DNA of 64,000 nucleotides from Nitrospira defluvii. Lineage in GTDB: Bacteria; Nitrospirota; Nitrospiria; Nitrospirales; Nitrospiraceae. Below the pieces are notes generated by a model. It saw nothing but the letters and a program-made list of their open reading frames with translations, did no database searches and was not told where the DNA came from. A program made the translations under genes and the position numbers. This document shows, piece by piece, positions 5,612 through 54,136 of the stretch; position 1 is the first letter of the stretch, and each line of letters begins with the position of its first letter. The stretch lies in NCBI GenBank assembly GCA_000196815.1, contig FP929003.1:806001-870000 (forward strand). Reading direction: 5' to 3'.

Positions 5612-8123
<2,512 letters not shown>

Positions 8124-28947: not shown

Positions 28948-29007
28948 CCGGGCTCAACGTGTTTCGACGGCTGTATGCAGGGCCGGTGGACGAGAGGAGA
29001 GCGTGGC

Positions 29008-29775: not shown

Positions 29776-29864
29776 CGTCGTGAAGTATGAAGGATGAAGT
29801 GTGACGGCCATGAGGAGAATGCGGCTGCGACGGCAGGGGACAGCGTCGGCCTGGATGAGGCTCC

Positions 29865-30626: not shown

Positions 30627-30637
30627 TAGGAGACGTT

Positions 30638-31081
30638 ATGGAACGCGCAAAGCTGGAATTGATGGTGGGAGTCTTTGTGCTCGTCGGGATCGCCTGCCTC
30701 GGGTATCTGTCCATCAAGTTGGGGAAGCTGGAAGTCATCGGGGGGCATAATTATCCGGTCGAGGCGGAGTTTACGTCTGCGTCGGGACTCAAACCGGGGG
30801 CGTCGGTCGAAATCGCCGGTGTCGAGGTCGGACGTGTCCGGCATATCGGCCTGAGCAGCGACCGTGCCCTGGTGGCATTGGCCATTCAAGACGGCGTGAA
30901 GTTGTATTCCGATACGATCGCCTCGATCAAGACCCGCGGGATCATCGGTGACAAGTATCTCGCTCTGTCGGTGGGGGGAGGGGGCGATCCGTTGAAGCCC
31001 GGCGACAAGATTCGCGATACCGAGGCCGGACTTGATCTCGAAGAATTGGTCAGCCAGTATGTACACGGGAAGGTCAACTAG
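30638..31081 (+). CDS. mlaD: MlaD-type MCE domain protein
   Basis: A 147-residue periplasmic-facing substrate-binding subunit. One N-terminal transmembrane helix (about residues 5-27) is followed by a single MCE domain with FTSASGLKPGASVEIAGVEV, VGRVRHIGLSSDRALVALAI and SIKTRGIIGDKYLALSVGG. Six MlaD copies normally form a ring on MlaE that passes lipids. AGGAGA stands a few bases before the ATG. It is short, lacking the C-terminal extension of some homologues. Confidence 0.95.
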   Translation: MERAKLELMVGVFVLVGIACLGYLSIKLGKLEVIGGHNYPVEAEFTSASGLKPGASVEIAGVEVGRVRHIGLSSDRALVALAIQDGVKLYSDTIASIKTRGIIGDKYLALSVGGGGDPLKPGDKIRDTEAGLDLEELVSQYVHGKVN

Positions 31082-31168
31082 TCTAATCGCGTCAGTTGTC
31101 AGGACATGGACGTGAACAAGCCAGGCCGGTGGGGAACGGAACTCACCACTCAAAGGAGAGGTGTTGGA

Positions 31169-31783
31169 ATGCAGACAAGCCGTTGGATGATGATCGGGGT
31201 CGTGCTGGCCCTGCAGATAGTGATGGGCGGGCTCTCGTCCGCTATGGCCGGACCGGCGACTGATTCGATCAAGGGCACCATCGACGAGGTGCTCAGAATC
31301 CTGAACGATAAAGAGTTGAAAGCCCCGGCCCGCCTGGAGGACCGGCGGCAGCGCTTGGAAAAAGTGGTGGCCCAGCGGTTCGACTATCCGGAGATGTCCC
31401 GGCGTTCGTTGGGTGCGCAGTGGAATCAATTGTCCGACAAGGACAAGCAGGAGTTTGTCGATCTGTTCCGGACGCTCTTGACCAATACGTACGCGGATCG
31501 GGTGGAGACCTATTCCGGCGAGGGGGTGCAGTATCTGAACGAGCGGACGGAGAAAGAGTATGCGGAAGTCCGCACCAAGGTACTTTCCGGGAAAACTGAA
31601 ATCCCCATGGATTACCGGTTGCTGAACAAGAGCAACGATTGGCATGTGTACGATGTCGTGGTTGATGGCGTCAGTCTGGTGAACAATTACCGCGGACAAT
31701 TCACAAAGATCCTCCATACCTCCTCGTATCCCGAACTCGTCGATCAACTCCGCAAGAAATCCGACAAGATCAAAGCTCCGTAG
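31169..31783 (+). CDS. mlaC: MlaC-type periplasmic lipid-binding protein (Ttg2D family)
   Basis: A 204-residue exported protein that would shuttle lipid between MlaD and the outer membrane. ATG 31169 is chosen because AAAGGAGAGG lies upstream and it begins a signal peptide (MQTSRWMMIGVVLALQIVMG, cleavage near SAMAGPA). Family features are FDYPEMSRRSLGAQWNQL, FRTLLTNTYADRVETYSGE, VLSGKTEIPMDYRLL, WHVYDVVVDGVSLVNNYRGQ and the C-terminal helix. It ends the core Mla set; two outer-membrane protein genes follow in the same direction. Confidence 0.93.
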   Translation: MQTSRWMMIGVVLALQIVMGGLSSAMAGPATDSIKGTIDEVLRILNDKELKAPARLEDRRQRLEKVVAQRFDYPEMSRRSLGAQWNQLSDKDKQEFVDLFRTLLTNTYADRVETYSGEGVQYLNERTEKEYAEVRTKVLSGKTEIPMDYRLLNKSNDWHVYDVVVDGVSLVNNYRGQFTKILHTSSYPELVDQLRKKSDKIKAP

Positions 31784-31817
31784 GTCCGGTAGGGAGCGAG
31801 CGATTCCGGCGAGCGCC

Positions 31818-33023
31818 ATGCAGTGTCACTATTTGTCGTCGATTCGAAGCTGTCTGGCGCTGGCCGGCCTGCTGCTCCTGAGCCTTCCGGCTCCGGCAGG
31901 CGCCGACACGCAGATTTTCCCGGTTCCCTCTGTCTCGACCAGCCGGAACGACGGCAACGACGCCGGCTTGATTGCGCCGATCCTGATTGCGGATCCGGAC
32001 GGAGAACTGAAGTATCTGATGGCGCCCATGCTCATTCAGAACTCGATCGTGGGGACACGCGGGGTCTTCAATCTATTCAAGTACGATCCTGGTGGTCGCC
32101 AGATGCGATTCATCGCCTCGTTGACCGAACGGATCGAACGCAAGGTGTTGTTCGATTATGTCGATCCGGCTTTCGGCAACGGGCAATATTCACTCAATTT
32201 CGGCGGCACCTTTTTTAAAAACGCGACCTCCCGGTTCTTCGGCCTCGGCCAGGCGACGACCCAGGCCGCCGAGTCCAACTATACGGCCAGGGAAGCGCGC
32301 GCCTACTGGCGGCTCGGTCTCTACGCGAATGAAGTGACGCAGATTTCCGTCGGGCAGCGGGTCCGGCAGGTGCAGCTTCAGCGAGGGGCGATCGATCTGC
32401 CCTTTTCGGTCGAGCAATTTCCCACGGTTGACGGTATTCAAGGCGAGTCCATCATCGTGGGCCACCGCGCCTCGTTTTATTACGACACCCGTGACAGTCT
32501 GGTGACTCCGACAGACGGCGTGGCCATCACCGCCTATGCCGAACTGAATCAAAATGTGAAAAACGGCGACCACCCGGTCTATTCGCGATACGAACTCGAG
32601 GTCAAGAAATTATTCCCCAGCGAGTCCAAGCGCGCCATTCTGGTCGTCCGCGCCGACCTGCAGGCGACCCTTGGATCTCAGGTGCCGTTTTTCGAACAGT
32701 CGTCGCTCGGAGGGCAGAACAATCTGCGCGGGTTCGGCTTGGACCGGTACATCGACAAACATCTGATTGCCTTTAGTATCGAAGAGCGGATTCACATCTT
32801 GAGGACGAAACTGGCCGGGGTGACTGCGGATTTCGAGGTGGCGCCGTTTCTCGACACGGGGCAGGTCTTCAACTCCTTCAAAGACGTCAGTTTTCAAGAT
32901 TATCGAATGACGCCGGGGTTGGGGTTTCGCGCCATTGTTCGTCCCAATGTCGTCGGCCGGGTCGACTACGGGTACAGTCGCGAGGGGGGAGCGGTCTTCG
33001 CTGGGTTAGACTTCCCCTATTAA
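31818..33023 (+). CDS. Omp85-type surface antigen barrel protein without POTRA domains
   Basis: A 401-residue outer-membrane protein. An N-terminal signal peptide (cleavage near PAGADT) leads directly into a beta-barrel of the bacterial surface antigen (BamA/TamA C-terminal) family; the hallmark lid-loop motif is visible as LGGQNNLRGFGLDRY, and the end is a barrel strand finishing in FAGLDFPY. There is no room for POTRA domains. It lies 35 bases after mlaC and abuts the next gene. In this context it could serve as the outer-membrane partner of the Mla system in place of MlaA; that is inference from position. Confidence 0.82.
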   Translation: MQCHYLSSIRSCLALAGLLLLSLPAPAGADTQIFPVPSVSTSRNDGNDAGLIAPILIADPDGELKYLMAPMLIQNSIVGTRGVFNLFKYDPGGRQMRFIASLTERIERKVLFDYVDPAFGNGQYSLNFGGTFFKNATSRFFGLGQATTQAAESNYTAREARAYWRLGLYANEVTQISVGQRVRQVQLQRGAIDLPFSVEQFPTVDGIQGESIIVGHRASFYYDTRDSLVTPTDGVAITAYAELNQNVKNGDHPVYSRYELEVKKLFPSESKRAILVVRADLQATLGSQVPFFEQSSLGGQNNLRGFGLDRYIDKHLIAFSIEERIHILRTKLAGVTADFEVAPFLDTGQVFNSFKDVSFQDYRMTPGLGFRAIVRPNVVGRVDYGYSREGGAVFAGLDFPY

Positions 33024-34052
33024 GTGCCATTGAGTGAACGGCCGGGGTTACTCTTGCGGTACACCATTCATTGTTTCTGCCTCTTTGCACTCCTGAGTGT
33101 GCTGCCGCGTGCTGCCGGAGCGGAAGGCTTCGGTCCGTTTCCAGTCAGAAACTTTCAAGCGCTGGATCAACTGGTCCTGGCTATGCCGGGCGAGCGGGCG
33201 ACGGTGCTTCGCAAGGGCGAGTTCGATGTGCGGCTGGAAGCGGCGAATACGGCCAGCATTGCCAGGGACAGTGAGGCGCAGGCCGAGGTGGCGATGAAGT
33301 TTGAAACGATCCGGGCCGGCCTGTTCCTCCGATACGGTCTCACCGATCGATTGGAACTCGGCGCAGAGATTCCGGGCTATCATCGGTACCGTGGCTTCAT
33401 GGAGGGGGCGATCATCGGGGTGGAACGGGGCACGACCGGTGTGGCGCCGGCGCGCAAAGCTCTGCGGGAGGCCGGGTATGCGTTTAATATTACGAGTGGC
33501 TCCCGCACGTTGTTTCAAGGATCCGAAGGCGCGACTGGATTGGGAGACATCTCGTTCTACGGCAAGTACCAGATTCTCAAAGAAACCTCGAGCCTTCCGG
33601 CCCTCTCAGTCCGGGTTGGGGTCAAGGCTCCGACCGGAGACACCGGCGAAGTGTTCGGCAGCGGGCATCCTGACGCCGGCATCGGCTTGGCGCTGGATAA
33701 GAAATTCGCGGGTAACTGGATCCTGTACGCGAATCTCAACGGGGTGTTTCCCACGGGACGGATTGCCGGGTTGGGACTCCAGCCGGTGGTGAGCGGGTTG
33801 GTTGCAGTGGAATATCTCTGGACGGAGAATTTTTCCATCACCGCACAGTTCGATTATTATTCCCCGCCGTTTCACGGGACAGGCACGCGAGTCCTGGATA
33901 AGGGCGTGACGGAGTCGGTGCTGGGGGTGAGTTATCGAATCCTTCCCGGTCTGCTCTGGCAGCTCTATGGAGTGGAGAATCTGGATTTCATCACCGGGAG
34001 CGCGGCGGATTTTACCCTCTCCACCGTCCTCACCTACCGGTTCCGGTCGTAG
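33024..34052 (+). CDS. Putative outer-membrane protein, DUF3187-like
   Basis: A 342-residue exported barrel-like protein. The GTG at 33024 follows the previous stop codon without a gap; a TTG at 33054 just before the hydrophobic leader (RYTIHCFCLFALLSVLPRAAG) is an alternative start. The mature part opens GFGPFPVRNFQALDQLVL, resembling DUF3187 proteins, and then alternates amphipathic strands (RYGLTDRLELGAEIP, GDISFYGKYQILKE, FSITAQFDYYSPPF, LSTVLTYRFRS at the end), as expected for a barrel. Function is unknown. It is probably co-transcribed with the Mla-type genes. Confidence 0.7.
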   Translation: MPLSERPGLLLRYTIHCFCLFALLSVLPRAAGAEGFGPFPVRNFQALDQLVLAMPGERATVLRKGEFDVRLEAANTASIARDSEAQAEVAMKFETIRAGLFLRYGLTDRLELGAEIPGYHRYRGFMEGAIIGVERGTTGVAPARKALREAGYAFNITSGSRTLFQGSEGATGLGDISFYGKYQILKETSSLPALSVRVGVKAPTGDTGEVFGSGHPDAGIGLALDKKFAGNWILYANLNGVFPTGRIAGLGLQPVVSGLVAVEYLWTENFSITAQFDYYSPPFHGTGTRVLDKGVTESVLGVSYRILPGLLWQLYGVENLDFITGSAADFTLSTVLTYRFRS

Positions 34053-41002: not shown

Positions 41003-41629
41003 CTATCGTCCGAAATGGAAGGCAACGCCGAACATGAAGAGGTTGGCGCGGTAGTCAGCCGTGATATTGCTGCGACTGAAGCTGAAATGGGCGAAATTGT
41101 ACTTGTATTCAATGAAGGGGGCGATCTTCGGCGTCATGAAATATTTGATGCCGGCTAACACGTTAAAGCTCGGGGCAAACGACGCTTCGGGCCTGAAGTT
41201 TCCATCCGAGATATTCCCCACATTGAGTCCGATGCCGAGACCCGCATAGGGTTCTACTTTGTATTGGTAACCGGTGACGCGGACCAGTGCGTTGAATGCG
41301 AGCGAATGCACCAGGAAATCCGCGCCGGGGACTTTTTGCGACAGAAAGCGATTGGTGGAGGCGGGAACGTTTTGCTGCTTAATGTCAGGCGCCGACCGAT
41401 ACATGTCGACTTCGAGGCCGAACCAGTTGAAGCCACGATCGTCGAAATAGTGGCCCAATTTCGCGCCATAAGCCAGATTGTTCGCGAGGTCGAGTTTGCC
41501 GACATCCGTGGTATCGAGGGTGGCGATATTCGGCCCAATGGCAAATGCAGCATAGTTTTCGGCCTGCCCAAGCGAGGGGAGGCAGAGCGCCACGATTCCG
41601 AACAAAACCGCCAACTTCCTACGGAACAT
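41003..41629 (-). CDS. Small outer-membrane beta-barrel protein (OmpW/OmpA-barrel-like)
   Basis: A 208-residue exported barrel. The start at 41629 has GGAGGG about 6 bases upstream and begins a signal peptide (FRRKLAVLFGIVALCLPSLG, cleavage near AENYA). The mature part shows alternating strands typical of eight-stranded barrels: AAFAIGPNIATLDT, YGAKLGHYFDDRGFNWFGLE, YKVEPYAGLGIGLNVGNI, FNVLAGIKYFMTPKIAPFIE and a final strand NLFMFGVAFHFGR ending in aromatic-basic residues. Function is unknown. It lies 86 bases after the end of the duplicated outer-membrane protein gene and reads in the same direction. Confidence 0.82.
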   Translation of the reverse strand: MFRRKLAVLFGIVALCLPSLGQAENYAAFAIGPNIATLDTTDVGKLDLANNLAYGAKLGHYFDDRGFNWFGLEVDMYRSAPDIKQQNVPASTNRFLSQKVPGADFLVHSLAFNALVRVTGYQYKVEPYAGLGIGLNVGNISDGNFRPEASFAPSFNVLAGIKYFMTPKIAPFIEYKYNFAHFSFSRSNITADYRANLFMFGVAFHFGR

Positions 41630-41715
41630 ACACCCTCCACCATGAACGAACCGTCTGCCTGTCGCTGGTGCTACTCTAACGGGCTTGATGCGGGGTGGCA
41701 AGAGAGAAGTGTATC

Positions 41716-43968
41716 TCAAGGCTGGTTGCAGGACGACTCGCTTCGATGCAGTAGCGTCGGTCGCAAGCAGAACCCGCGCCACGGTGATTGATCCCAGGAC
41801 CAGTTGAGTAACGCATACTCGGTATGGGTCATGCGATTGTCGATCACGCGTCCGAACCCGCCGACCCGCAGGGAGAACCCGGCCGGCAGCAAGAAATCGC
41901 GCAAGAGCCCGAACTCCGTGAAGTTTCCGGCGTAGTAGGCCGGGTCGCCCTGCTCATTCACGAAATGCTCGCCTCGCCAGATCGTGACGTAGGGCCGCCA
42001 ACCGTCCAGATCCACACCGGCCGTCAGTTGATAGCCCCGGCCGCGAACGATCGGCGCACCGCTCTGGGTCGGTTCGTTTTGGCTGGTGAGATACAACGCC
42101 ATCACGTCGATTTCACGAAACCACGACAGGGCGGACGAATAGCGATTAGGCTGGAATGTGAATTGCGGTCCGACGGCCGTCAGGAAATTGTTTGAGGCCG
42201 GCCGGTCTCTCGGCAGGCCGACTCCGAAAAACGTGCGGGATTCCGAGTACTGCGCCCCGCCGCTGTGGGTCCAGTAGACTTGGCCGTTCAAGGAAAAGAA
42301 TCCGGCGCTCGCGCGCCCTGCATATCCCACGTCGAACCGCTCCGCTTTTTGGAACGTCTCGAGCTGGTTCCAGTTGATGAACAGATCCTGCTGGTAATGT
42401 TCCCGGTTCACCAGGAGTTGGAACCCTTGTTCGAGAGGGCGTGAAAACAGGGAGGCGTCGTTGAACAGCGCATCCACGAAGGGGTGGTTCCGCTTGATCG
42501 TGCCGGCGATCACCGACACCGCCGGCCAGATTTCGTACTCCGCCGACAGGATCGGCTGCACCGTGTGGAATCGCTGCGTATCCCCGACGGGCAACCCTGC
42601 AAAGACGCCGATGTCCAGATTCAACCTGGACGAAGGGCTGTATCTGAGCACGGGCGCAAGGTATTGACCGGCGAGGGTGCTGTTCGCGACCGGTCGCCCT
42701 CCGATTTGCCGGAGGCCGGAATAGGCGATGTTATACACATAGGTCAGGGTGTCGAGTTTGGCCGTGAATCGAGGCGCGGAATCTGGGGGCTCTGTGGCGG
42801 CCGGGTTGTTCTGCGCGGGGAACAAGTCTCTCATGAACTGACCATCTGCGGTATCCCAGTTCCAGTTGAAGACGAGATATTGCTGGTTCACCCATTTGGT
42901 CCCTTGCGGGATAAATTCATTGACCGCATTGCGCAGGCGCCTTGCTTGCACCCCGAACTCGATGGAGGCATTCTCCCCGAGCGCATACACTTTGGAGAGC
43001 CCCACTTCCATGAAATTCCCTGCAACGAATTCAGGATCGCCCTGTTGGCCAAGGAAGTTCACGCCGCGCCAGAATCCTATGCGCGGTCGCCAGCCTGCGA
43101 TATCCAGCCAGGCTTGAACATCGTAGCCGCGTCCCTGGTCATAAGGGACGGCGCGAGCCGCTTGATTGAAGCTGTTGAGATACGTCAAGCGGATGCCAAG
43201 TTCATTCCACCATCGGAGGGAACTGAAGTACCGTGCCGGTTCGAAAACGAGTTCGGGGCCGAAGGCGGTTACCAGATTGTTGCCGGTAGTGAAGGAACGG
43301 TCGAGTTTGAGAAGGGCTTGGCCGTGATGGACCCAGTGCGCCTGCCCATTAAAGCGGAAGAGGCCGGCTCGAAGTTGTCCCGCATAACCCACATCGTACC
43401 GATTGGTGGCGGAGCCGCGGAAGGCCTGCTCCCAGTTGATAAACAGGTCTTGTCGGTAATACTCTGAGTTCACCGTCACTTGCGCACCCTGTTCGATCGG
43501 TCGCACAAACCGGTTGGCATTGTCGAAGACCGCATCGTGAAAGTCCCGGTGCGGGACCGCAAGGGTGCCGAGCAGCGCCGTGATTTCCTCAGTGGGGCGG
43601 TATTGAAGGCGGATAATCGGCCGGACTTGCGACACCTCCGTGTCATGGCCGTACGGCATATTGGCGAACACTCCAAGGTCCAAGTCTACGGAGGATAGCA
43701 GGCGTTTCCGCAGATACACGTTCAGCAGATTGCCCATCAGGGTCGTGTCCCGGCCCAGACCATTCGTGAACGTGTTGTCCTCGAGCCCTTGTTTTTCAAG
43801 GTTCAGGAGGAAGGTTGTGGTTTCGACATGCAGGTCAAGCGCATGCGGGGCGGAGGCGGAATCCCCTGTGCTGTCCGCCGAGGCCGGGAGTGTGTCAAAT
43901 AGCGCCAGGAGCGTCCAAACGACGATCAGTGGAAGCGCGCGCCATGTGAGGGGGGTGGGCTGAAGCAC
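41716..43968 (-). CDS. Large outer-membrane protein made of two homologous halves
   Basis: A 750-residue exported protein of unrecognised family. GTG 43968 starts a signal peptide (cleavage near LPASADS). The sequence is an internal tandem duplication: half 1 (about residues 94-375) and half 2 (about 447-740) share, in the same order, VDLDLGVFANMPYG/LNLDIGVFAGLPVG, RPIEQGAQVTVNSEYYRQDL/RPLEQGFQLLVNREHYQQDL, FINWEQ/FINWNQ, RYDVGYAG/RFDVGYAG, VTAFGPELVFEPARY/LTAVGPQFTFQPNRY, WRPRIGFWRG/WRPYVTIWRG and QQGDPEFVAGNFMEVGL/EQGDPAYYAGNFTEFGL. Amphipathic strands suggest one large or two consecutive beta-barrels. The C terminus after the last strand is odd, with RPTLLHRSESSCNQP. Confidence 0.75.
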   Translation of the reverse strand: MLQPTPLTWRALPLIVVWTLLALFDTLPASADSTGDSASAPHALDLHVETTTFLLNLEKQGLEDNTFTNGLGRDTTLMGNLLNVYLRKRLLSSVDLDLGVFANMPYGHDTEVSQVRPIIRLQYRPTEEITALLGTLAVPHRDFHDAVFDNANRFVRPIEQGAQVTVNSEYYRQDLFINWEQAFRGSATNRYDVGYAGQLRAGLFRFNGQAHWVHHGQALLKLDRSFTTGNNLVTAFGPELVFEPARYFSSLRWWNELGIRLTYLNSFNQAARAVPYDQGRGYDVQAWLDIAGWRPRIGFWRGVNFLGQQGDPEFVAGNFMEVGLSKVYALGENASIEFGVQARRLRNAVNEFIPQGTKWVNQQYLVFNWNWDTADGQFMRDLFPAQNNPAATEPPDSAPRFTAKLDTLTYVYNIAYSGLRQIGGRPVANSTLAGQYLAPVLRYSPSSRLNLDIGVFAGLPVGDTQRFHTVQPILSAEYEIWPAVSVIAGTIKRNHPFVDALFNDASLFSRPLEQGFQLLVNREHYQQDLFINWNQLETFQKAERFDVGYAGRASAGFFSLNGQVYWTHSGGAQYSESRTFFGVGLPRDRPASNNFLTAVGPQFTFQPNRYSSALSWFREIDVMALYLTSQNEPTQSGAPIVRGRGYQLTAGVDLDGWRPYVTIWRGEHFVNEQGDPAYYAGNFTEFGLLRDFLLPAGFSLRVGGFGRVIDNRMTHTEYALLNWSWDQSPWRGFCLRPTLLHRSESSCNQP

Positions 43969-44086
43969 AATGGGAGCGGATCATAAGTGGGAGCGGTGTA
44001 AAACGTCAATGTTCGGGAACCTATTACGCAAGTCGTTGCCTGGGTGATCTGTAAAGGAACGCAGCAGTAGACGAACAAGTCTCTGC

Positions 44087-45511
44087 ATGCTGCAGAGACA
44101 GATCCACTGGATCATGATTGAGTCGCGCATGTCAGTTGAGAATAAGTCTGCTTGTGAATTGCATCCTCGGCATCTTCGCGTGAGCGCAGCTCTCTCGGCG
44201 ATCACCCTTGCCCAAATCTTCAGTGCATTTGGCATTCAATGGTATACCGTGGCGCATCTTGGCGTTGGTGTACAGACTGATGCATTGTATGCAGGGGCAA
44301 CGCTTTCACAGATCGCCATCGCGCTCCTCATTGAGCCGCTTGGGTTGGTGTTAATCCCCTTCTTCTCTTCAAGGGTGGAAATCGATCAGGACTGGGCGGG
44401 TTGGCCCCTCCTCTGCGTCATCGGAGCGGCCTCATCAATAAGTGTCGCCATATTGTTCTTGCTCGCACCGATCGTAGTCCCCATTCTTGCGCCTGGCTTA
44501 GCTGAACCCACCGCCAACCTCGCCGTGGGATTGGCACAGGTTCAGATAGTCGGCCTGATAGGTGTTGGCTGCGGAACGGTGCTGACTTGCCTCTCGCAAG
44601 CCCAAGGCCGTTTTGTCTGGCCCGCCTTGTCGGTCCTGATCTGTGTGAGCGGCGGATGGGTGCTCTTAGTATTCGGACTTGATAGATGGGGCGTTCGACT
44701 TGCTGCCTGGGCACAAGTATTCATTGTCACAGGACCAGCACTCCTAATTTTTCCCGCCGTCAAGAAGGGTGGGGGCGGTTCATACTCTGATGTTGTGTCT
44801 CTCGGGAAGGCAGTCTGGGGTCAGATGCGCCCCCTCGTGATAAGTGCCTCCTATAATCGCACGAGCTTCTTGGTTGACCGGCTGCTGGCATCCCTCCTCA
44901 TGCCAGGGAGTATTGTGATTCTTGAATTGGTCTGGCGGATACATTCGGCCATCGTTCGAGTCATAAATCAGGGATTGATTACTCCTATTCTGCCTCAACT
45001 TACTTCATTGAGCCACCGGAGGGAATGGCCTCAGTTGGTGGGGTTATGCAAAGAGAGATTGTTGTGGATTTGCGGTTTGAGTGTGATGACAGTCGGTTTG
45101 TTAGGTGGGACCGGATTGCTCTGCCGCATTACGGTGCTGCAAGATGTATGTAAATCGCTGCTTGGCTCTCTCCATGTAGATGACTTAAGCAGAATATGGA
45201 TTGTGCTGATGAGTTGCTCAGGGGTTTTGCTAAGCGCAAGTATCAACCATTTATTGGTGAGTGTGTTCTATGCGCAAGGAGATACGAAGACTCCAGCAAA
45301 GATTGAGGCTCTTGCCAATACGATCGGATTGATATTGAAATCTGTTGGGTGCCTGCTTGGCGGACTCATCGGCATTGCGATTGGGGTCAGCTGCTATTAT
45401 GCGCTAAATGCACTTCTTCTCGGAATAGTTCTACGAAGACGTTTGTCAGCCCAGCGCCTGGAGCGCGATTCGAGGGATGGCAAATCCCTTGCTCCGGTCG
45501 CAATCTACTAA
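44087..45511 (+). CDS. MurJ/MviN-superfamily flippase, probably for surface polysaccharide
   Basis: A 474-residue polytopic membrane protein of the MOP exporter superfamily, closest in appearance to MurJ/MviN. Segments such as VGVQTDALYAGATLSQIAIALLIEPLG and the late VFYAQGDTKTPAKIEALAN (typical of MurJ helix 10-11 region) are visible, with about 12-14 hydrophobic stretches. The start may be at a later ATG (44117), since the first residues are hydrophilic. It opens the polysaccharide cluster, so it likely flips lipid-linked glycan units rather than lipid II. Base composition is clearly more A/T-rich than genes before 44 kb. Confidence 0.85.
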   Translation: MLQRQIHWIMIESRMSVENKSACELHPRHLRVSAALSAITLAQIFSAFGIQWYTVAHLGVGVQTDALYAGATLSQIAIALLIEPLGLVLIPFFSSRVEIDQDWAGWPLLCVIGAASSISVAILFLLAPIVVPILAPGLAEPTANLAVGLAQVQIVGLIGVGCGTVLTCLSQAQGRFVWPALSVLICVSGGWVLLVFGLDRWGVRLAAWAQVFIVTGPALLIFPAVKKGGGGSYSDVVSLGKAVWGQMRPLVISASYNRTSFLVDRLLASLLMPGSIVILELVWRIHSAIVRVINQGLITPILPQLTSLSHRREWPQLVGLCKERLLWICGLSVMTVGLLGGTGLLCRITVLQDVCKSLLGSLHVDDLSRIWIVLMSCSGVLLSASINHLLVSVFYAQGDTKTPAKIEALANTIGLILKSVGCLLGGLIGIAIGVSCYYALNALLLGIVLRRRLSAQRLERDSRDGKSLAPVAIY

Positions 45512-45697
45512 TTCCACGTCATGATTGTTGAGAATCTCGAAAGAGACAGATTCTCTTAGCGAGGTGAGAGTTCTTGGTTGGAGGAGATTTGGAATCCCCC
45601 TATTCGAAGCAGCGAGCTTGTCCCCGATGGTGAAGACTATGGATGGTGCCATGAGCGTTCAGCATTGGTGCATGAGTAGTGTGGAGAACGGCTGACG
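45512..45697. other. Intergenic gap in polysaccharide cluster
   Basis: About 190 bases, A/T-rich for this genome. No gene or clear promoter seen. The following ATG is preceded by GAACGGCTGACG without a strong ribosome-binding site. Confidence 0.4.
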
Positions 45698-46819
45698 ATG
45701 TGTCAACGATCAACATCATTGGCTCTCATAGTCATGTTGCTCACGGTCGTTGGAATAGTTTTGTTTCTGGAGTTGATACTGCGGCTGTTCCCTGTGAACG
45801 AAGGGTTACGTTCAATGGCAGTCACCGAGAATAGTCCGATTTTCCGATATACTCCACACCGAAAGTCGATTTGGTCGAAGGGGTGGAACTTCTCTATTGT
45901 GAATGAAGTCCACACCAACAATTTTGGATTCATCAGCGAAATTGATTACGATCCAGCTGCTCCGGGGCCATTATTGGCGATTGTCGGAGATAGCTATATC
46001 GAGGCAGCAATGGTGCCGCATCACGAAACAGCCCCAGCGCTTCTCAACAAGGAACTAGTTGGTAAAGGCCGTGTCTATGGCTTTGGTGCTTCTGGATCCG
46101 CGCTCAGTCAGTATCTGGCATATGCCGAGTATGCCAGAGACATTTTTCACCCTGAAGCCTTGGTAGTCCTAGTGGTAGGAAACGATTTTGACGAGAGCCT
46201 TCTTCGTTACAAGAGCGTCCCTGGATTTCATTATTTTGCTGAACAGGCGAGTGGTGAGTTGCGGCTCATACGCATCGATCGTGAAGTACCTCCTTGGAGG
46301 GAGGTCTTCACCCGATCGTCGCTTGCCATGTATCTCGCTGCAAACCTTGAAATTGGTCACGTTTTTGAACGCGTGAAGGAGCTCGTGCAATCCTCGCCAA
46401 GCAGAGCGGGAAGATATGTCGGGAATACATCAGCCAGCGCCAACCCTATCCGCATTGCAGAATCCCTGCGGGGGGTTGACGCGTTTATCAACATGCTGCC
46501 CGTGAAAGCTGGGCTTATGCCCAAGAAAATTTTGCTCGTGATTGATGCTGTCAGGCCTGACATGTACGATCCTGCAGCTCGGCAAGATGCGGAGAGCACC
46601 TACTTTGGTCTCATGAGGCGCCATTTTCTAGCGAAAGCATCGGCCGCCGGGTTTGAAGTCATTGATATGGAGACTGAGTTTCGTGAGGATCATACGGTGA
46701 CGGGACGTCGCTACGAATACCCAACCGACACCCATTGGAACAATGCTGGTCATGAGGTGTTCGCGAGGGCGGTGCAGAGATCTGCTGTGTATCGATCGTT
46801 TTATGCGGCTGCCCAATAA
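45698..46819 (+). CDS. Membrane-anchored SGNH/GDSL-hydrolase-like protein
   Basis: A 373-residue protein with one N-terminal membrane segment (about residues 8-30) and an SGNH-type domain outside the cytoplasm. Block I is seen as IVGDSYIEAAMV (serine about residue 99), a block III-like motif is VVGNDFDES, and the C-terminal DxxH-type block is PTDTHWNNAGH (Asp about 344, His about 346). Such proteins in polysaccharide loci add or remove O-acetyl groups, as in the AlgJ/AlgX and PatB-type families. It lies in an A/T-rich block of the cluster. The exact substrate is unknown. Confidence 0.75.
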   Translation: MCQRSTSLALIVMLLTVVGIVLFLELILRLFPVNEGLRSMAVTENSPIFRYTPHRKSIWSKGWNFSIVNEVHTNNFGFISEIDYDPAAPGPLLAIVGDSYIEAAMVPHHETAPALLNKELVGKGRVYGFGASGSALSQYLAYAEYARDIFHPEALVVLVVGNDFDESLLRYKSVPGFHYFAEQASGELRLIRIDREVPPWREVFTRSSLAMYLAANLEIGHVFERVKELVQSSPSRAGRYVGNTSASANPIRIAESLRGVDAFINMLPVKAGLMPKKILLVIDAVRPDMYDPAARQDAESTYFGLMRRHFLAKASAAGFEVIDMETEFREDHTVTGRRYEYPTDTHWNNAGHEVFARAVQRSAVYRSFYAAAQ

Positions 46820-46931
46820 ATGCACCTGCAGGCGTTGCCCATTTGAACTTCTGCTTTTCGTTAGTAATCCATCGCCTCTCCATTTAGCAATGGGGCAGAT
46901 TGGTGTTCCGCTACATCGGGAGGAGATAGTC

Positions 46932-47909
46932 TTGGACCCACTTCGCATATTGTCCGTAATCCCCGGCGATCCACATGGAACCTCAATGATCTTTGCGAGA
47001 AACCAAGTGGATTCACTCGCAAAAGCAGGAATGATTTGCCGCACATTTTTTCTCCGTTCGCGGACCGCTCCCTTCCAGCTCCTTGTCGAAGCGCAAGAAT
47101 TTCGACGCAAGATGGTCGAGTTCAGGCCTGATGTGCTGCATGTCCATTATGGAAGTATGACGGCATTGTTTTGCGCTCTCCTAACGACCTGTCCGCTTGT
47201 GGTGAGTTATCAGGGGAGTGACCTTAACCCATGCCCCAGTATCAACGCCGCCAGGTCATTTGTCGGGAGAGTCTTTTCTCAGCTGGTGGCCATTCGCGCC
47301 AAGCGCATCATCTGCGTTAGTCAGGGGTTGAGGGATAGACTATGGTGGAACAGATCCCGTGCAGCCGTCATACCATCAGGTGTTGACTTAGGGGTATTCC
47401 ATCCAATGCCCAAGAATGAAATGCGATCTGAGCTACGGTGGGGTGAGCGAGAGATGATAGTAATTTTTAGCGCGGGAGCGGAGCCCCGGGTTAAACGTCT
47501 TGACCTTGCTCAGCTAGCTGTGAAAAAAGCCGAAACTTTGTGCGGCGGTATCAGGTTTGTTGTGCTTGACGGTAGGACGGAGCAGCGAATGTTAGCTATC
47601 TTATTCAATGCCGCCGATTGCTTTCTCATGACCAGTGATTGGGAAGGTTCTCCGAACATTGTGAAGGAGGCCATCGCTTGTAATCTGCCAATTGTTTCAG
47701 TAGATGTCGGCGATGTCAAAGAGCGGCTGGCCCATGTTCGTCCGTCGAGGATAGTTGGTCGAGATCCAGCCGAACTCGGAATGGCCTTGGCTGATCTATT
47801 GCGGAAGCCCGGGCGGTCTAATGGCCATGAGATCATTCAAGAGCTGTCCTCTGAGAGGGTCGCCGAGCGAGTTGTGGCGCTGTATCGTGAAGCTCTGGGC
47901 AACTGGTGA
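46932..47909 (+). CDS. Glycosyltransferase, GT4-like (GT-B fold)
   Basis: A 325-residue glycosyltransferase. TTG 46932 is chosen because AGGAG at 46921-46925 stands 6 bases upstream and DPLRILSVIPGDPHGTSMIF is a natural N terminus; the frame is open further upstream over the end of the preceding gene without family similarity. GT-B features: a C-terminal donor-binding domain with AVIPSGVDLGVFHPM, GAEPRVKRLDLA and the E-x7-E-type motif WEGSPNIVKEAIACNLPIVS. It would transfer a sugar to the growing lipid-linked glycan at the cytoplasmic face. It starts about 110 bases after the SGNH gene. Confidence 0.85.
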   Translation: MDPLRILSVIPGDPHGTSMIFARNQVDSLAKAGMICRTFFLRSRTAPFQLLVEAQEFRRKMVEFRPDVLHVHYGSMTALFCALLTTCPLVVSYQGSDLNPCPSINAARSFVGRVFSQLVAIRAKRIICVSQGLRDRLWWNRSRAAVIPSGVDLGVFHPMPKNEMRSELRWGEREMIVIFSAGAEPRVKRLDLAQLAVKKAETLCGGIRFVVLDGRTEQRMLAILFNAADCFLMTSDWEGSPNIVKEAIACNLPIVSVDVGDVKERLAHVRPSRIVGRDPAELGMALADLLRKPGRSNGHEIIQELSSERVAERVVALYREALGNW

Positions 47910-47939
47910 TGTCCTGCGAAACGTCATGAGGCCAGGGCA

Positions 47940-49754
47940 GTGAACAAGAGAAGTCACGATTCGGCTTGTATGATTCTGGGTATCAATGAAGGTATTGATG
48001 CGGCTGTTGTTTTGTGTCGCAATGGAAGAATCATTTTCGCTTTGCAGGAGGAGCGGCTAAACGGGCAGAAGGGTTACATCGGATTCCCCGTGCAGGCCGT
48101 CGCGTATTGTTCAAGAGCATTTTCCCTTCATGCTGGAAATGTCTCCCATGTGTGCTTCAGCAACCTCCATAGTCCTCCGAATGAAACTCGCGCTGACCTC
48201 CTTGGGTATTATGCCAGGAGTCTCAGTCCCTGGTATGAGGGACTTGCTGCGGGAGATGTCCGGGGGGTAACGAGATTGATCTCAAGCTGCATTCCGACCA
48301 GCGCGGAGTCTGCACTCACAAAATGGCGCTTGGAGCGTCGCAGTGTCGGTCAAAATAAAATCGTCGAGCACAAGCTGGCTAATCTCGGCCTGGACGGCGT
48401 ACCCATACAGCGGTATCACCATCACTCTAATCACGCGGCTTCGGCATATTATGGCCTTCGGAAAAACGGAGAGGCTCCGCACCTCGTTTTTACTTCTGAT
48501 GGAGGCGGAGACGATGCCTGTTCGCACGTGTATCTGGCTCAAGGCGAGAGCTTGCGGCTGATCGCCTCCACGCCTAGCGGGCATTCGCTGGGAAATCTGT
48601 ACGCCTGCACCACATATCTGATGGGTATGCGTCCGCATGAGCATGAGTACAAACTCATGGGACTTGCGCCTTATTGCAAGGTGGGACAGGCTGATGTGGT
48701 CAAGAAACGGTTTTCCACCTATCTGGATCTGGATCCTCGAAATCCACTGTGTTTTAAGCGAATGATTCCAGAACGGACATCGATGATTCTTCCTCGATTG
48801 GCAACGGATTTCAGTTGTGTCCGGTTCGACGCGCTCGCCGCCGGTTTGCAGGACTTCACGGAAGAGCTGTTGCTCCGTTGGATTTCCAGTGCCATCGAAC
48901 AGACCGGTGTGAAGAATATCCTTGTGGCGGGCGGTGTGTTTATGAACGTCAAGGCTAACAAGCGAATTGCAGAGTTTCCCGCAGTCGAGTTCTTCGAGGT
49001 CTTTCCTTCATGTGGCGATGAGACACTACCTTTTGGCGCTGTCTGGCAATGTCATGTTCAGAACGGCGGAATTTCAACTGAGATCAAGTTCGATGGAATG
49101 TGTCTCGGGCCAGAAGCGACCCTTGATGTCGCTGAGGCAAAAAGGCGATATGCCGAACGGGTGCAGATCGAGCATGTAGAGGACCCAGAGGCTAAAATCG
49201 CTGAATTACTTGCGGTCGGGCACGTTGTCGCCCGGTGCACGGGGCCCATGGAGTTTGGCGCGAGAGGGCTTGGCAATCGATCAATCCTGGCCGACCCCAG
49301 CCATCCGCAGGTTGTCGGCACTATCAACCGGCTTATCAAACGACGGGATTTCTGGATGCCGTTCGCACCGGCCATTCTAGAGGAAAAAGCGGATGACTAT
49401 GTACGGATTCCTGAGTCGTTACGACATGGGAAGTCTTTGTGCTCTATGATGCATGCCTTCGACACGACTGCGCGAAGGCAGGAGCTGATCGCCGGGGTGC
49501 ATCCTGCGGATGGGACGGCACGCGCACAGATTGTTCGGCAGCATGACAATCCTCGTTTCCACTCCTTGATTACGCACTTCGGCCGGCTGACTGGGCGATG
49601 GGCGATTCTTAATACCTCATTTAATCTTCACGGGTCGCCAATGGTGATGGGATTGTGTGATGCGATCGATGTCTTGTTGGCATCCGATCTTCAATATCTC
49701 GTCGCCGATCACTATCTGGTGACCAAGCGGACGATGACGCAGCGAGATAGCTAA
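47940..49754 (+). CDS. Carbamoyltransferase, NodU/CmcH family
   Basis: A 604-residue O-carbamoyltransferase. Such enzymes use carbamoyl phosphate and ATP to add a carbamoyl group to a sugar hydroxyl (NodU on Nod factors). N-terminal Kae1-like domain: ILGINEGIDAAVVLCRNGRI, QEERLNGQKGYIGFP, HHHSNHAASAYYGL and the metal/ATP region FTSDGGGDD; C-terminal domain: VARCTGPMEFGARGLGNRSI, FWMPFAPAILEE and WAILNTSFNLHGSPMV. GTG 47940 is used as start; ATG 47970 is also possible. It suggests a carbamoylated sugar in the surface polysaccharide. The following gene starts directly after the stop codon. Confidence 0.93.
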   Translation: MNKRSHDSACMILGINEGIDAAVVLCRNGRIIFALQEERLNGQKGYIGFPVQAVAYCSRAFSLHAGNVSHVCFSNLHSPPNETRADLLGYYARSLSPWYEGLAAGDVRGVTRLISSCIPTSAESALTKWRLERRSVGQNKIVEHKLANLGLDGVPIQRYHHHSNHAASAYYGLRKNGEAPHLVFTSDGGGDDACSHVYLAQGESLRLIASTPSGHSLGNLYACTTYLMGMRPHEHEYKLMGLAPYCKVGQADVVKKRFSTYLDLDPRNPLCFKRMIPERTSMILPRLATDFSCVRFDALAAGLQDFTEELLLRWISSAIEQTGVKNILVAGGVFMNVKANKRIAEFPAVEFFEVFPSCGDETLPFGAVWQCHVQNGGISTEIKFDGMCLGPEATLDVAEAKRRYAERVQIEHVEDPEAKIAELLAVGHVVARCTGPMEFGARGLGNRSILADPSHPQVVGTINRLIKRRDFWMPFAPAILEEKADDYVRIPESLRHGKSLCSMMHAFDTTARRQELIAGVHPADGTARAQIVRQHDNPRFHSLITHFGRLTGRWAILNTSFNLHGSPMVMGLCDAIDVLLASDLQYLVADHYLVTKRTMTQRDS

Positions 49755-49755
49755 G

Positions 49756-51171
49756 GTGGAATTTTACGTTCTTCTGACATCCGCCACTGGCGCAATTGTT
49801 CTTCTGGGATGGCTCGTGTGGAGCAGAGCCCACCATCTTTCGTTCCCGCTCGGTATCGGCCTGATCTATTACTGGTCTCTGTTCGGAGCCTGGTCCATTG
49901 TGCAAGACCGGCTCGGCGGCGAGAGTGGGAAACGGTACGACTATCTGGAAGCGAAATTGTTTCCGGTCATGCTCGACGACAACTACCTGATGACATTGTT
50001 GCTCTATGCGGCGTTCATCATTCTGATCGAGATCGCGCTGCTCCTGTTTTTGAAGCCAGGGCCTCTGCCGGATGACACCTGGCCGGCCCCGATCGATGTG
50101 TCCCATGGAGTCTTGCTGTGCCTGGCGGTGCTGTGTGGAATCGGCAGTTATGCGCTTATCCGAGAGCCCTTGGAAATGGCCGACAGCATGAACCTCTCCA
50201 CTTACATGGTGACGCGAGGAGGATTGGGGGAATTGCCGCCCTATTTCACCATCCATCAGTTGTTGAGCCGCGGAGCGCTGCTGTCAACCGCCATCGGGTT
50301 GAGCATTGTGAGCAGCGGCAGAGAGGCTCGTCTGTTCGTCGGTTCAGACGGATGGGCCGTACGGGCCGGATATCTGGCCGTTGCGGCCGGCCTCTTCTGG
50401 TTCGCGCTCATCCTGGGGAACAAGAATGAATTGTTGTTCGTCGGCATCGGAGGCGGCCTCCTATACCTCGCCAATGCACGGCGTCCTCGATTGGCTGCGT
50501 TGACGCTCACCGGTGCGGTCGGTTTTGTCGGGCTGTGGCTCGTCGACACGTTGCGCGGCTTGCCGCTGGCGGCGGTTGCGGGAGGCCTCCAGGATCTCGA
50601 GCCGGCTCATTGGTTGAACGCCGCACAGTTTGTCGCGTCAAGCAATGAAGCCTTCGCGGCTCATTTTTCCTTGTACGGGGCGCTGGCTCTCAACGTGCCG
50701 CTGACCTATGGAGAGAGTGTGCTCAGCATGCTCGCCTCGGTGATTCCACGATTTGCATGGCCGAACCGGCCGCCGGATATTTATCTGCACTATGCCGATA
50801 GTATCGGGGTGGCTGAAGGACAGGGCTTTACCATTCACCATGCGACAGGGTGGTATCTCAACTTCGGCGTGCTTGGCATTCTCGCCGGAGCGCTGCTGTG
50901 GGGGTGGGTGTGGGCCAGATGTTCTGTTGATGCCCATCCTGTCGGCCCACACCGATCGCGTTTTTGGATCTTGTGGGGACGCGTGCTGCCCTGGATGTTC
51001 GTGGCCAGTATCCCGATGCTAATTCGAGCTGGATTCGAAGGGTATAAGGCGCTTCTCGTCGAAGCCTTCTTGCTCCCCACGGTCATTCTGCTCCTGGCCT
51101 CGACCGACGGAACATTCTGCCGTGTGCTTCGTCTGAATCCCGACCGCCGGACGCCTCTGCTTGCGGAGTGA
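49756..51171 (+). CDS. Polytopic membrane protein, putative O-antigen/EPS polymerase (Wzy-like)
   Basis: A 471-residue protein with about 11-12 hydrophobic segments and few charged residues between them. It has no catalytic signature, which is usual for Wzy polymerases and O-antigen ligases; a sizeable external loop with NVPLTYGESVLSMLASVIPR and FAWPNRPPDIYLHY is present, comparable to the oligosaccharide repeat unit polymerase family. The GTG start overlaps the purine-rich end of the previous gene. Position between a carbamoyltransferase and a glycosyltransferase supports the role; the assignment rests on topology and context only. From here on, base composition returns to the G/C-rich background. 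Confidence 0.6.
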   Translation: MEFYVLLTSATGAIVLLGWLVWSRAHHLSFPLGIGLIYYWSLFGAWSIVQDRLGGESGKRYDYLEAKLFPVMLDDNYLMTLLLYAAFIILIEIALLLFLKPGPLPDDTWPAPIDVSHGVLLCLAVLCGIGSYALIREPLEMADSMNLSTYMVTRGGLGELPPYFTIHQLLSRGALLSTAIGLSIVSSGREARLFVGSDGWAVRAGYLAVAAGLFWFALILGNKNELLFVGIGGGLLYLANARRPRLAALTLTGAVGFVGLWLVDTLRGLPLAAVAGGLQDLEPAHWLNAAQFVASSNEAFAAHFSLYGALALNVPLTYGESVLSMLASVIPRFAWPNRPPDIYLHYADSIGVAEGQGFTIHHATGWYLNFGVLGILAGALLWGWVWARCSVDAHPVGPHRSRFWILWGRVLPWMFVASIPMLIRAGFEGYKALLVEAFLLPTVILLLASTDGTFCRVLRLNPDRRTPLLAE

Positions 51172-51181
51172 AAGGCTGCAG

Positions 51182-52228
51182 ATGAGTGATACATCGCAAC
51201 CTGCCGTGACCGTCCTGGTTCCCTGCCGCGATGAGGAACGGTTCATCGGCGCGTGCCTCGATTCGATCCTCAACAACGACTACCCAAAAGATCGTCTCGA
51301 GATCCTGGTTATCGACGGCATGAGTCAGGATGGGACGAGGGCAAGTGTCTCCCGCTACAGCGCGAATCATCCCTCAATACGACTCCTAGACAATCTCAAG
51401 CAGGATACTCCCCACGGGTTGAATTTGGGTATTGCAGCGGCAATCGGTGACATCATCGTGAGGATGGATGCACACAGCATGTATCCAAAGAACTACATTT
51501 CAAGGCTTGTGGCGTGGCTTTCAAAAACTGGAGCGGACAATGTCGGCGGCGTGTGCATGACCGTGCCCGCGAATGACAGTCCCGTGGCGCGCGCGATTGC
51601 CCGGGGTCTTTCGCACCCGTTCGGTGTGGGCACGTCGTATTTCCGGATCGGGACCTCCACGCCGCGATGGGTCGATACGGTGTTCGGAGGCTGTTACAGG
51701 AGAGACGTGTTTGCGCGAATCGGGTTGTTCGATGAGCAACTCATCAGAAATCAGGACGATGAATTCAATCACCGATTGATCGCTCGCGGGGGGCGGATTT
51801 TGTTGGTCCCGGACGTGGTCTCCTACTATTATCCCCGGTCGTCGCTCGCGCAGCTCTGGAGGATGTTTTATCAGTACGGGTACTTCAAACCGCTGGTCGC
51901 CTTGAAGCTCGGCAGGATCGGCACCGGACGGCAAGTGGTTCCTATGGTGTGCCTGGGGTTGCTCGTCGGCCTCTCCGTCGCCTCGATCGCTTCCCCCGTC
52001 GCCAGATTCATGCTCATGCTGCTCGTCGCCCTGTACCTGTCGGCAGATTTTGCCGTCTCGTTTGCGGTAGGATTGTCGAGCGGTCTTCGTTGCGCCGGCT
52101 GGCTGATGCTGGTGTTTCCGACCCTCCATGTCAGTTACGGCATGGGCTATATGCGCGGGATATTCGATTTTGTGATCCGTCGGAAGCGGCCCGACATCGC
52201 CACGAACGCGATCCCACTGTCCAGATGA
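51182..52228 (+). CDS. Glycosyltransferase family 2 with C-terminal membrane segments
   Basis: A 348-residue GT-A enzyme. ATG 51182 gives the typical start VTVLVPCRDEERFIGACLDS; it lies 8 bases after the stop of the putative polymerase. The catalytic domain shows ILVIDGMSQDGT, IVRMDAHSMYPKNYI (the DxD-like metal site), VDTVFGGCYRRDVF and NQDDEFNHRLIARGGR. Two or three transmembrane helices (about residues 250-330) anchor it. It resembles ExoA-type succinoglycan glycosyltransferases. Its stop codon overlaps the start of the methyltransferase gene (ATGA). Confidence 0.88.
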   Translation: MSDTSQPAVTVLVPCRDEERFIGACLDSILNNDYPKDRLEILVIDGMSQDGTRASVSRYSANHPSIRLLDNLKQDTPHGLNLGIAAAIGDIIVRMDAHSMYPKNYISRLVAWLSKTGADNVGGVCMTVPANDSPVARAIARGLSHPFGVGTSYFRIGTSTPRWVDTVFGGCYRRDVFARIGLFDEQLIRNQDDEFNHRLIARGGRILLVPDVVSYYYPRSSLAQLWRMFYQYGYFKPLVALKLGRIGTGRQVVPMVCLGLLVGLSVASIASPVARFMLMLLVALYLSADFAVSFAVGLSSGLRCAGWLMLVFPTLHVSYGMGYMRGIFDFVIRRKRPDIATNAIPLSR

Positions 52229-52983
52229 TGCCTGTGGAACTCTCACGGAAGAAATGTACGACCGATGCCGCGGATCTCGAACGGGAAGCGGCTCGGATTC
52301 GTGACGCCTATGCGCGCCGCACGACCGGCTCGTGTGCCGGACTGTATTCCTTCTTCAATCGCGGCAACCTGTTCCTGCTTCAGGAGCGGGAGCGCCGTGT
52401 CCTGTCCGTCCTGGAACGGGCCGGTTGGTCGTCGCTTCAGGCCGTTCGCATTCTTGACGTGGGGTGTGGCGCAGGGTTCTGGATTCGAGATCTCATTCGT
52501 TGGGGTGCCGATCCACGACACATCACCGGCGTGGACCTTCTGGAACAACGTGTTGAGGAAGCCCGATGCCTGAGTCCGGAGGGGGTGACCATCCATTGTC
52601 GGAACGCGGCCGCACTCGAGTTTCCCGATGAAAGCTTCGACCTCATCATCCAGTCGACGGTGTTTACGTCCATTCTGAACCGGGACGTACAACAACGGCT
52701 CGCCCGTGAAATGGTGCGCGTACTGAGGCCGAATGGGTTGATCCTGTGGTATGACTTTCACATGAATAATCCCCGCAATCCCGATGTTCGCGGGGTCACG
52801 GCGCGCGAGATCCACCGGCTGTTTGGGGACTGTACCATCGAGCTGAGCCGCATAACTCTCGCCCCACCGGTCACGCGGATGCTGGCACCGCTTTCCTGGT
52901 TTGCCTGTCAGCTGTTGAGCGCAGTGCCGTGGCTATGCACCCATTATCTCGGAACCATTCGAAAGTCAGCGCGCTATGAGTGA
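52225..52983 (+). CDS. Class I SAM-dependent methyltransferase
   Basis: A 252-residue methyltransferase. The ATG at 52225 overlaps the stop of the glycosyltransferase gene. The SAM-binding motif I is ILDVGCGAGFW (about residue 75), followed by ITGVDLLEQRVEEAR (motif II acidic residue), FDLIIQSTVFTSIL and VLRPNGLILWYDFHMNNPRN. It likely adds a methyl group to a sugar of the surface glycan or to a lipid-linked intermediate. It overlaps the aminotransferase gene by 8 bases, indicating translational coupling. Confidence 0.87.
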   Translation: MMPVELSRKKCTTDAADLEREAARIRDAYARRTTGSCAGLYSFFNRGNLFLLQERERRVLSVLERAGWSSLQAVRILDVGCGAGFWIRDLIRWGADPRHITGVDLLEQRVEEARCLSPEGVTIHCRNAAALEFPDESFDLIIQSTVFTSILNRDVQQRLAREMVRVLRPNGLILWYDFHMNNPRNPDVRGVTAREIHRLFGDCTIELSRITLAPPVTRMLAPLSWFACQLLSAVPWLCTHYLGTIRKSARYE

Positions 52984-54136
52984 ACACGCGGTTCCGTTTC
53001 ATCTTCCGGAGATCGGCGAAGAGGAAATTCGCGCGGTCACTGAGACGCTGCGCTCCGGCTGGTTGACGACGGGGCAGCGGACGAAGCAATTCGAGCAGGA
53101 GTTTGCACAGGCCGTGCACGCAACGCATGCGGTGGCCACGAATTCCGGCACGGCTGCGCTGCACCTGGCCCTGGAAGCGGTCGGAGTCAAAGAAGGCGAT
53201 GAAGTCATTCTGCCGACCATGACGTTTGCCGCCACGGCTGAAGTGGTGTCGTATCTCAGAGCAAAACCGGTTCTGGTGGACAGTGAACCTGACACCTTGA
53301 ACCTCGATCCCGACGCGGTGAAGCAGGCCATTACCCCGCGGACCAAGGTGATCATGCCCGTTCACTTTGCCGGGCATCCCTGCGCGATGGATCGGCTGTT
53401 GTCATTGGCGACGGAGTACGAGTTGAAGGTGGTCGAAGATGCCGCGCATGCGCTGCCGGCGGCAGATCACGGTCGGATGGTCGGCGCGATCGGTGACATC
53501 ACCTGCTTCTCTTTCTACGCGACCAAGTCCATTACGACCGGGGAAGGCGGGATGGCCACCACCCACCATGCCCACTACGCCGAGCGCATGCGGAGCATGA
53601 GTCTGCATGGGATTACGAAGGATGCGTGGAGCCGCTACGCGGGGACCGGATCCTGGTATTACGAGATTCGCGAGCCTGGATTCAAATACAACCTGACCGA
53701 TATCGCGGCGTCGATCGGCATCGAACAGCTCAGGAAATCTCGCCGGTTCTGGACGGCGCGCGCTCGAATCGCCGCGGCCTATCACGATGCGTTCAACGAA
53801 CTGCCGGAGATTCAGCGACCTCTGTGCCGTCCCGGCTATGAACATGCCTGGCATTTGTATGTGATTCAATTGAATCCCGAACGTCTTCGTATTACCCGGG
53901 ATGATTTTATCGAGGCCTTGAAGAAGGAACAGATCGGAACGTCCGTACATTTTATGCCCCTGCACATGCATCCGTATTATCGGGAGCGGTACGGATACCA
54001 TCGCGATGATTTCCCGCATGCCTGCGCAGCTTTCGAACGCAGCATCTCTCTGCCGATTTACTCGCGCATGAGCGAGGCCGATATCCGGCACGTCATCGAT
54101 GTGGTTCGATCACTGATTACGCAGTATCGGCGGTGA
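52976..54136 (+). CDS. DegT/DnrJ/EryC1/StrS-family sugar aminotransferase
   Basis: A 386-residue PLP enzyme that aminates an NDP-keto-sugar. Motifs: LRSGWLTTGQRTKQFEQEFA at the N terminus, TNSGTAALHLALEAVGVKEG, and PLP lysine 184 in CFSFYATKSITTGEGGM, with EDAAHALPA carrying the cofactor-binding acidic residue. It resembles PglE/WecE-type enzymes making 4-amino-4,6-dideoxy sugars. The 4-keto substrate would come from the CapD/PglF-type dehydratase encoded further down, and the downstream sugar transferase is PglC-like, so a PglF-PglE-PglC set for a diNAcBac-like sugar is conceivable, though no PglD acetyltransferase is seen. Confidence 0.92.
   Translation: MSEHAVPFHLPEIGEEEIRAVTETLRSGWLTTGQRTKQFEQEFAQAVHATHAVATNSGTAALHLALEAVGVKEGDEVILPTMTFAATAEVVSYLRAKPVLVDSEPDTLNLDPDAVKQAITPRTKVIMPVHFAGHPCAMDRLLSLATEYELKVVEDAAHALPAADHGRMVGAIGDITCFSFYATKSITTGEGGMATTHHAHYAERMRSMSLHGITKDAWSRYAGTGSWYYEIREPGFKYNLTDIAASIGIEQLRKSRRFWTARARIAAAYHDAFNELPEIQRPLCRPGYEHAWHLYVIQLNPERLRITRDDFIEALKKEQIGTSVHFMPLHMHPYYRERYGYHRDDFPHACAAFERSISLPIYSRMSEADIRHVIDVVRSLITQYRR

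Follow-up and report, generated by a model that had tools for sequence, protein, structure and literature searches.

Fusions of complete outer-membrane barrels within a single polypeptide chain are known from alpha-proteobacteria, MnoP being one of several examples, and are described there as rare and as mostly combining different families (PMC4827864). Repeats within prototypical barrels have also been reported, and the account given of them concerns shifts by one hairpin or by a double hairpin (PMC6340704). Among lipid A-modifying proteins, LpxZ has been named for PGN_1123 of P. gingivalis, the deletion of which leaves lipid A penta-acylated (PMC11784228), and a further publication, citing the 2019 study of PGN_1123, names the deacylase of this organism LpxR/PG1333 (PMC12704123). 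The protein described here is encoded within a 64,000-nucleotide stretch of the Nitrospira defluvii genome, the whole of which is referred to as the window. The tandem duplication that it carries is real, old and conserved, and what is duplicated appears to be an entire outer-membrane barrel with 16 predicted strands and LpxZ-like ancestry. Since fused complete barrels have already been described in alpha-proteobacteria, the window protein varies a known theme; a survey of the literature by title and start of the abstract turned up neither a description of the protein nor a case in which one entire outer-membrane barrel recurs head to tail.

The initial annotation of the gene had claimed a duplication within its reading frame, and this is borne out by an alignment of residues 39-372 with residues 397-726, in which 129 of 317 aligned residues are identical (41%). 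The BLOSUM62 score of this alignment amounts to 591, whereas 500 shuffled versions of the second half scored 37.5 on average (s.d. 5.7) and 66 at most. The motif pairs FINWEQ/FINWNQ and RYDVGYAG/RFDVGYAG, which had been put forward as examples, are found in register across both halves. While the two homologous halves are thereby established, the length of 280-300 residues ascribed to them has to be corrected, as the units comprise about 330-350 residues. At the codon level the halves are 51% identical overall and 39% identical at third positions, the latter value indicating that the duplication is old and neither recent nor the product of misassembly. In addition, the presence of the two-unit frame in 28 of 100 genomes shows that it is no artefact of the window's assembly. 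The features of the locus are compiled in Table 1. The tail cysteines Cys702 and Cys715, located beyond the last strand and without exception in the two-unit proteins, perhaps form a disulphide. The promoter-like match (TTGACG-18-TATGAT, within 43968-44009) ends just ahead of the GTG codon, so that the mRNA may be nearly leaderless.

Table 1. Positions of the two-unit gene, its segments and its conserved neighbour within the window.
Feature	Position	Strand	Basis
Two-unit outer-membrane protein gene, 750 aa	41716..43968	-	ORF, GTG start; orthologues with two units in 28/100 genomes
Signal-peptide-like N-terminus, residues 1-32	43873..43968	-	Judgement of the sequence by eye
N-terminal unit (16 strands predicted), residues 39-372	42853..43854	-	Self-alignment; DSSP of the low-confidence full-length model
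Stretch between N-unit strands 5 and 6, with invariant His140 and Glu159	43489..43566	-	Conservation; full-length model
Inter-unit linker, 28 residues in the window protein, poorly conserved	42769..42852	-	Column conservation
C-terminal unit, residues 401-726, predicted 16-stranded barrel	41791..42768	-	AlphaFold2 (pLDDT 81, pTM 0.80); PDB porin matches
C-unit loop 3, predicted to be extracellular and containing invariant His495 and Asp499; Glu513 next, at the start of strand 6	42433..42495	-	Conservation
C-terminal tail with two invariant cysteines	41719..41790	-	C702 and C715 (mature numbering), 28/28 rows
Sigma-70-like promoter match, close 5' of the GTG start	43980..44009	-	Consensus match only
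Small OMP_b-brl barrel gene, conserved downstream neighbour	41003..41632	-	Pfam PF13505, E 1.7e-10

An AlphaFold2 prediction of the full-length protein from 28 close rows reached a pLDDT of 52.3 and a pTM of 0.37. It contains 16 strands per half, not counting one additional small hairpin of the N half, and, being poor, was kept out of the fold searches. The C unit alone, predicted from 63 rows, yielded 16 strands with a pLDDT of 81.0 and a pTM of 0.80. Upon searching with Foldseek and VIA-align this model matched 16-stranded porins end to end (model residues about 7-331) at a sequence identity of roughly 10%, among them V. cholerae OmpT (Z 18.8, 262 residues), OmpM1 (Z 18.1) and the R. blastica porin (Z 16.4, 251 of 289 residues). 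As judged from these porin alignments, the 16 strands of the C unit are predicted to close on themselves. The outer-membrane barrel proposed in the initial annotation is thus supported by the strand content of both halves and by the full-length correspondence of the C unit to solved porins. No lipid A deacylase appears among the Foldseek and VIA-align matches listed, which does not constitute evidence against one. Sequence searches of the PDB gave no match for either the protein or the unit profile; likewise, none was obtained for the protein in PHROGs or for the surroundings of the gene in Rfam.

Whether the chain folds into two barrels or into one of double size had been raised in the initial annotation as well. 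A single giant barrel of 32 strands, built from both halves, would accord with the 16 strands predicted for each of them, and larger single-chain barrels do exist, as exemplified by SprA with its 36 strands; the full-length model could not decide the matter. We nevertheless consider such a barrel very improbable, given that single-unit proteins stand alone, that the model of the lone unit is a barrel whose strands, from the first to the last, align with those of closed porins, and that the junction is a variable linker rather than a tight turn. In all 28 rows this linker comprises 28-29 residues, while the remaining turns which the model places on the periplasmic side have 2-11, and its mean column conservation is 0.53 versus 0.83 and 0.88 for the units. 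The inter-strand gaps of the model amount to 100 residues for the odd and 32 residues for the even ones. This asymmetry, along with the even number of strands and the length and variability of the linker, is in keeping with two barrels joined in the periplasm. We therefore infer two tandem 16-stranded barrels instead of one of 32 strands. Neither a soluble repeat protein nor a single barrel with repeats at the level of strands was seen; going by the models, what is repeated is a whole 16-strand barrel.

The two-unit form occurs in 27 of 29 genomes of the window's genus and in one genome of another genus of the same family (G042); it is absent from G002 (89% complete) and G012 (99% complete), both belonging to the window's genus. 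Within these 28 proteins the N and C units are 36-43% identical to each other. With respect to the units of the window protein, identity in the two-unit relatives ranges from 75% to 97% for C units and from 64% to 99% for N units; in 23 of 27 relatives the C unit is the more strongly conserved of the two. The search for single-unit homologues which the initial annotation had recommended was successful, as such proteins exist elsewhere in the phylum. Three further genera of the family harbour them (G054, G038 and G041, the last one apparently split by contig ends), as do G356, G471, G472 and G250. The G250 gene, which is apparently frame-shifted, is divergently oriented to the LptF/LptG genes of LPS export (L115:3058-4150 and 4263-6426). 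The unit profile matched 17 of 295 genomes of the phylum, all of them two-unit genomes of the window's genus except G038 and G250, while the LpxZ profile matched 24 of 395 Nitrospirota genomes, adding G356 and G354, and a wider unit profile matched 5 of 230 genomes of the class of G356. In G354, single-unit genes encoding 374 and 387 residues lie next to each other and overlap by four bases (L114:3935-6219).

To describe the relationship of these units, a tree was calculated from 28 N units, 28 C units, seven single units and one Parabacteroides LpxZ. The N units form one clade and the C units another (supports 100/100 and 100/98). The two G354 proteins are sisters (support 100/100), and by this placement the pair represents a second, independent doubling of the same barrel which is unfused. 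For a set thinned to 30 of the 56 half-units plus the seven single units, with Parabacteroides left out, the best tree joins the single units of G054 and G038 to the N units with a support of 49/8. AU tests on this set rejected neither the grouping of N with C units (p 0.51) nor that of C units with the G054/G038 single units (p 0.41). These single units may thus have split off either before or after the duplication.

A connection to a named family is provided by the NCBIfam model LpxZ_fam (NF052651), which matches the window protein in two stretches (E 3.3e-19, 69 bits) and each half separately (E 3.9e-11 and 5.1e-9), with hmmscan covering positions about 99-311 of the 371 positions of the profile. 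The curated cut-off of this model is 460 bits; the window protein lies below it, and no protein from the 395 Nitrospirota genomes lies above it. By that rule the name LpxZ is not transferable and the protein is no member of the family. When plasmid records were searched by tblastn with the unit of G356, one protein of Parabacteroides distasonis was hit (E 6e-3). It passes the cut-off with 567 bits, and no Pfam family matches it at E values of up to 5, although the P. gingivalis deacylase has elsewhere been called LpxR. Comparison of the unit profile with this bona fide LpxZ by hhalign extends over 276 columns with a probability of 98.2 and an E value of 3.4e-14. Profile comparison thus shows homology with LpxZ over most of the domain, even though the units are only about 18-22% identical to the Parabacteroides protein.

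An alignment of Parabacteroides LpxZ with ten units contains 11 invariant columns, one of them occupied by His and the others by Gly, Pro, Asn or Trp. The shared His, located in loop 3 of the model, is present in all 28 N units and all 28 C units. In a further alignment two of the seven single units, namely the G354 pair, lack it in the corresponding column, although the alignment with Parabacteroides LpxZ places one there. The conserved Asp that belongs to the His motif is replaced by Glu in Parabacteroides LpxZ and, in 9 of 28 N units, by Asn. This last replacement could indicate that just one half is active while its copy serves structure, substrate binding or regulation, the faster-evolving N half possibly being the changed one; in farther relatives the N units are 64-67% identical to that of the window protein, as opposed to 75-89% for the C units. 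We consider this unlikely, as almost every row retains in each of its halves the His, the Glu, the Asn-Trp pair and the majority of the remaining invariant positions.

The main rival to an enzymatic role is a covalent pair of channels, i.e. a two-pore porin composed of 16-stranded diffusion channels, whose likeness to LpxZ would reflect nothing but shared barrel descent. The best fold matches from the PDB all belong to porins or exporters (OmpT, OmpM1, OmpF, AlgE), the conserved loop corresponds to loop 3, which is the constriction loop of classical porins, and the score of the protein misses the LpxZ cut-off. Yet no Pfam family, porins included, was matched by the whole protein at E up to 1, nor did any of 17 units match a porin or other barrel family at E up to 10, one unit showing a weak match to a single unrelated family (E 0.088). 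Furthermore, LpxZ is the sole named family matched, and the His and the Glu are retained in both halves as well as in bona fide LpxZ. Taken together, we regard the porin as doubtful, though more probable than a protein with just one active half.

Our main reading, to which we assign a probability of roughly 0.45 and hence somewhat less than even odds, is that of a secreted tandem pair of 16-stranded barrels which derives from an LpxZ-related single-barrel ancestor and most likely acts on lipid A or descends from sites that did so. Duplication and fusion of the ancestral gene would have produced two barrels connected by a long and flexible periplasmic linker. Each of them keeps an invariant His (His140 and His495) and a Glu (Glu159 and Glu513) in or beside loop 3, whose extracellular position, and thus its location on the side of the outer leaflet, is suggested by the model. 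Each barrel may accordingly represent a site acting on the acyl chains of lipid A or the descendant of such a site, and our best guess is a two-site enzyme for outer-leaflet lipid A. The conserved His and Glu could act on an ester-linked acyl chain, which is also the action proposed for other lipid A deacylases of the outer membrane. With two sites linked, two acyl positions might be served, or else two lipids lying side by side. That they operate in concert, acting on both halves of the lipid A disaccharide or on neighbouring lipid A molecules, with such a pairing having arisen separately in G354 as overlapping genes, seems to us an improbable extension of this reading. The genome itself encodes LpxC, meaning that it makes lipid A, and it contains no match to LpxR.

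The linked barrels perhaps work with the small barrel encoded next to them, whose gene lies 86-330 bases downstream on the same strand in all 28 two-unit genomes. A strong orthologue of this small barrel is also present in G012, a genome devoid of the two-unit gene; no C-terminus of a two-unit protein is encoded by the 262 bases that remain upstream of it on the contig. Hence, the neighbour can stand without the two-unit gene. At a greater distance, homologues of it are widespread, occurring in 60 of 100 genomes at E 1e-5; at the single-unit loci searched, the small barrel was not found. An assignment of the small barrel as PagL, which a weak Pfam PagL match (E 0.016) and an H-x-S motif in N. 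defluvii might suggest, was rejected since the His is replaced by Gln in many orthologues. On its other side the two-unit gene is flanked by a divergently transcribed MurJ-type flippase gene and a polysaccharide cluster. This cluster (44087-54136, plus strand) comprises the MurJ-type flippase gene as well as genes of the AlgX-like, glycosyltransferase, carbamoyltransferase and DegT aminotransferase types; its G+C content is lowered over 44-50 kb (0.51-0.54) and its gene content differs among relatives. Other outer-membrane lipid and barrel genes of the window are located at 28975-34052 (plus strand), where an MlaE permease (28975-29775), a protein of the Omp85 type (31818-33023) and one with DUF3187 (33024-34052) are encoded.

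On the usual view, barrel proteins grow hairpin by hairpin. A whole 16-stranded barrel that is apparently repeated within one chain, and kept so across a genus, raises a question of folding, namely how the Bam machine inserts two complete barrels from one chain. Beyond that, the protein is an LpxZ-like candidate for lipid A remodelling in nitrite oxidisers, which are only remotely related to the host-associated Bacteroidota that gave rise to the name LpxZ.

PagL and LpxR, the latter with 12 strands, are outer-membrane barrel enzymes acting on lipid A and in this respect comparable to the role proposed here; searched with a limit of E 1, the two-unit protein matches neither of the corresponding Pfam families, PF09411 (PagL) and PF09982 (LpxR). 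With the 16-stranded porins (Vibrio OmpT, the R. blastica porin, OmpF and OmpM1) the window protein shares the fold of one unit and its number of strands, but it differs from them in its sequence, which is about 10% identical and matches no porin family, and in its proposed two barrels per chain. The LpxZ family (NF052651), which includes the P. gingivalis lipid A deacylase PGN_1123, is homologous to each unit and has the invariant His and the Asn-Trp signature in common with it. In contrast to that family, the window protein carries two units per chain at a low level of identity and belongs to a different phylum. The fused pore proteins of alpha-proteobacteria, whose chains combine two or three complete barrels (Reddy and Saier 2016, PMC4827864), would resemble it in this architecture. 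As described in that survey, however, these fusions join different families, one three-domain case consisting of an alginate-exporter domain flanked by 1.B.4 domains, whereas in the Nitrospirota protein one and the same 16-stranded barrel appears to be repeated head to tail.
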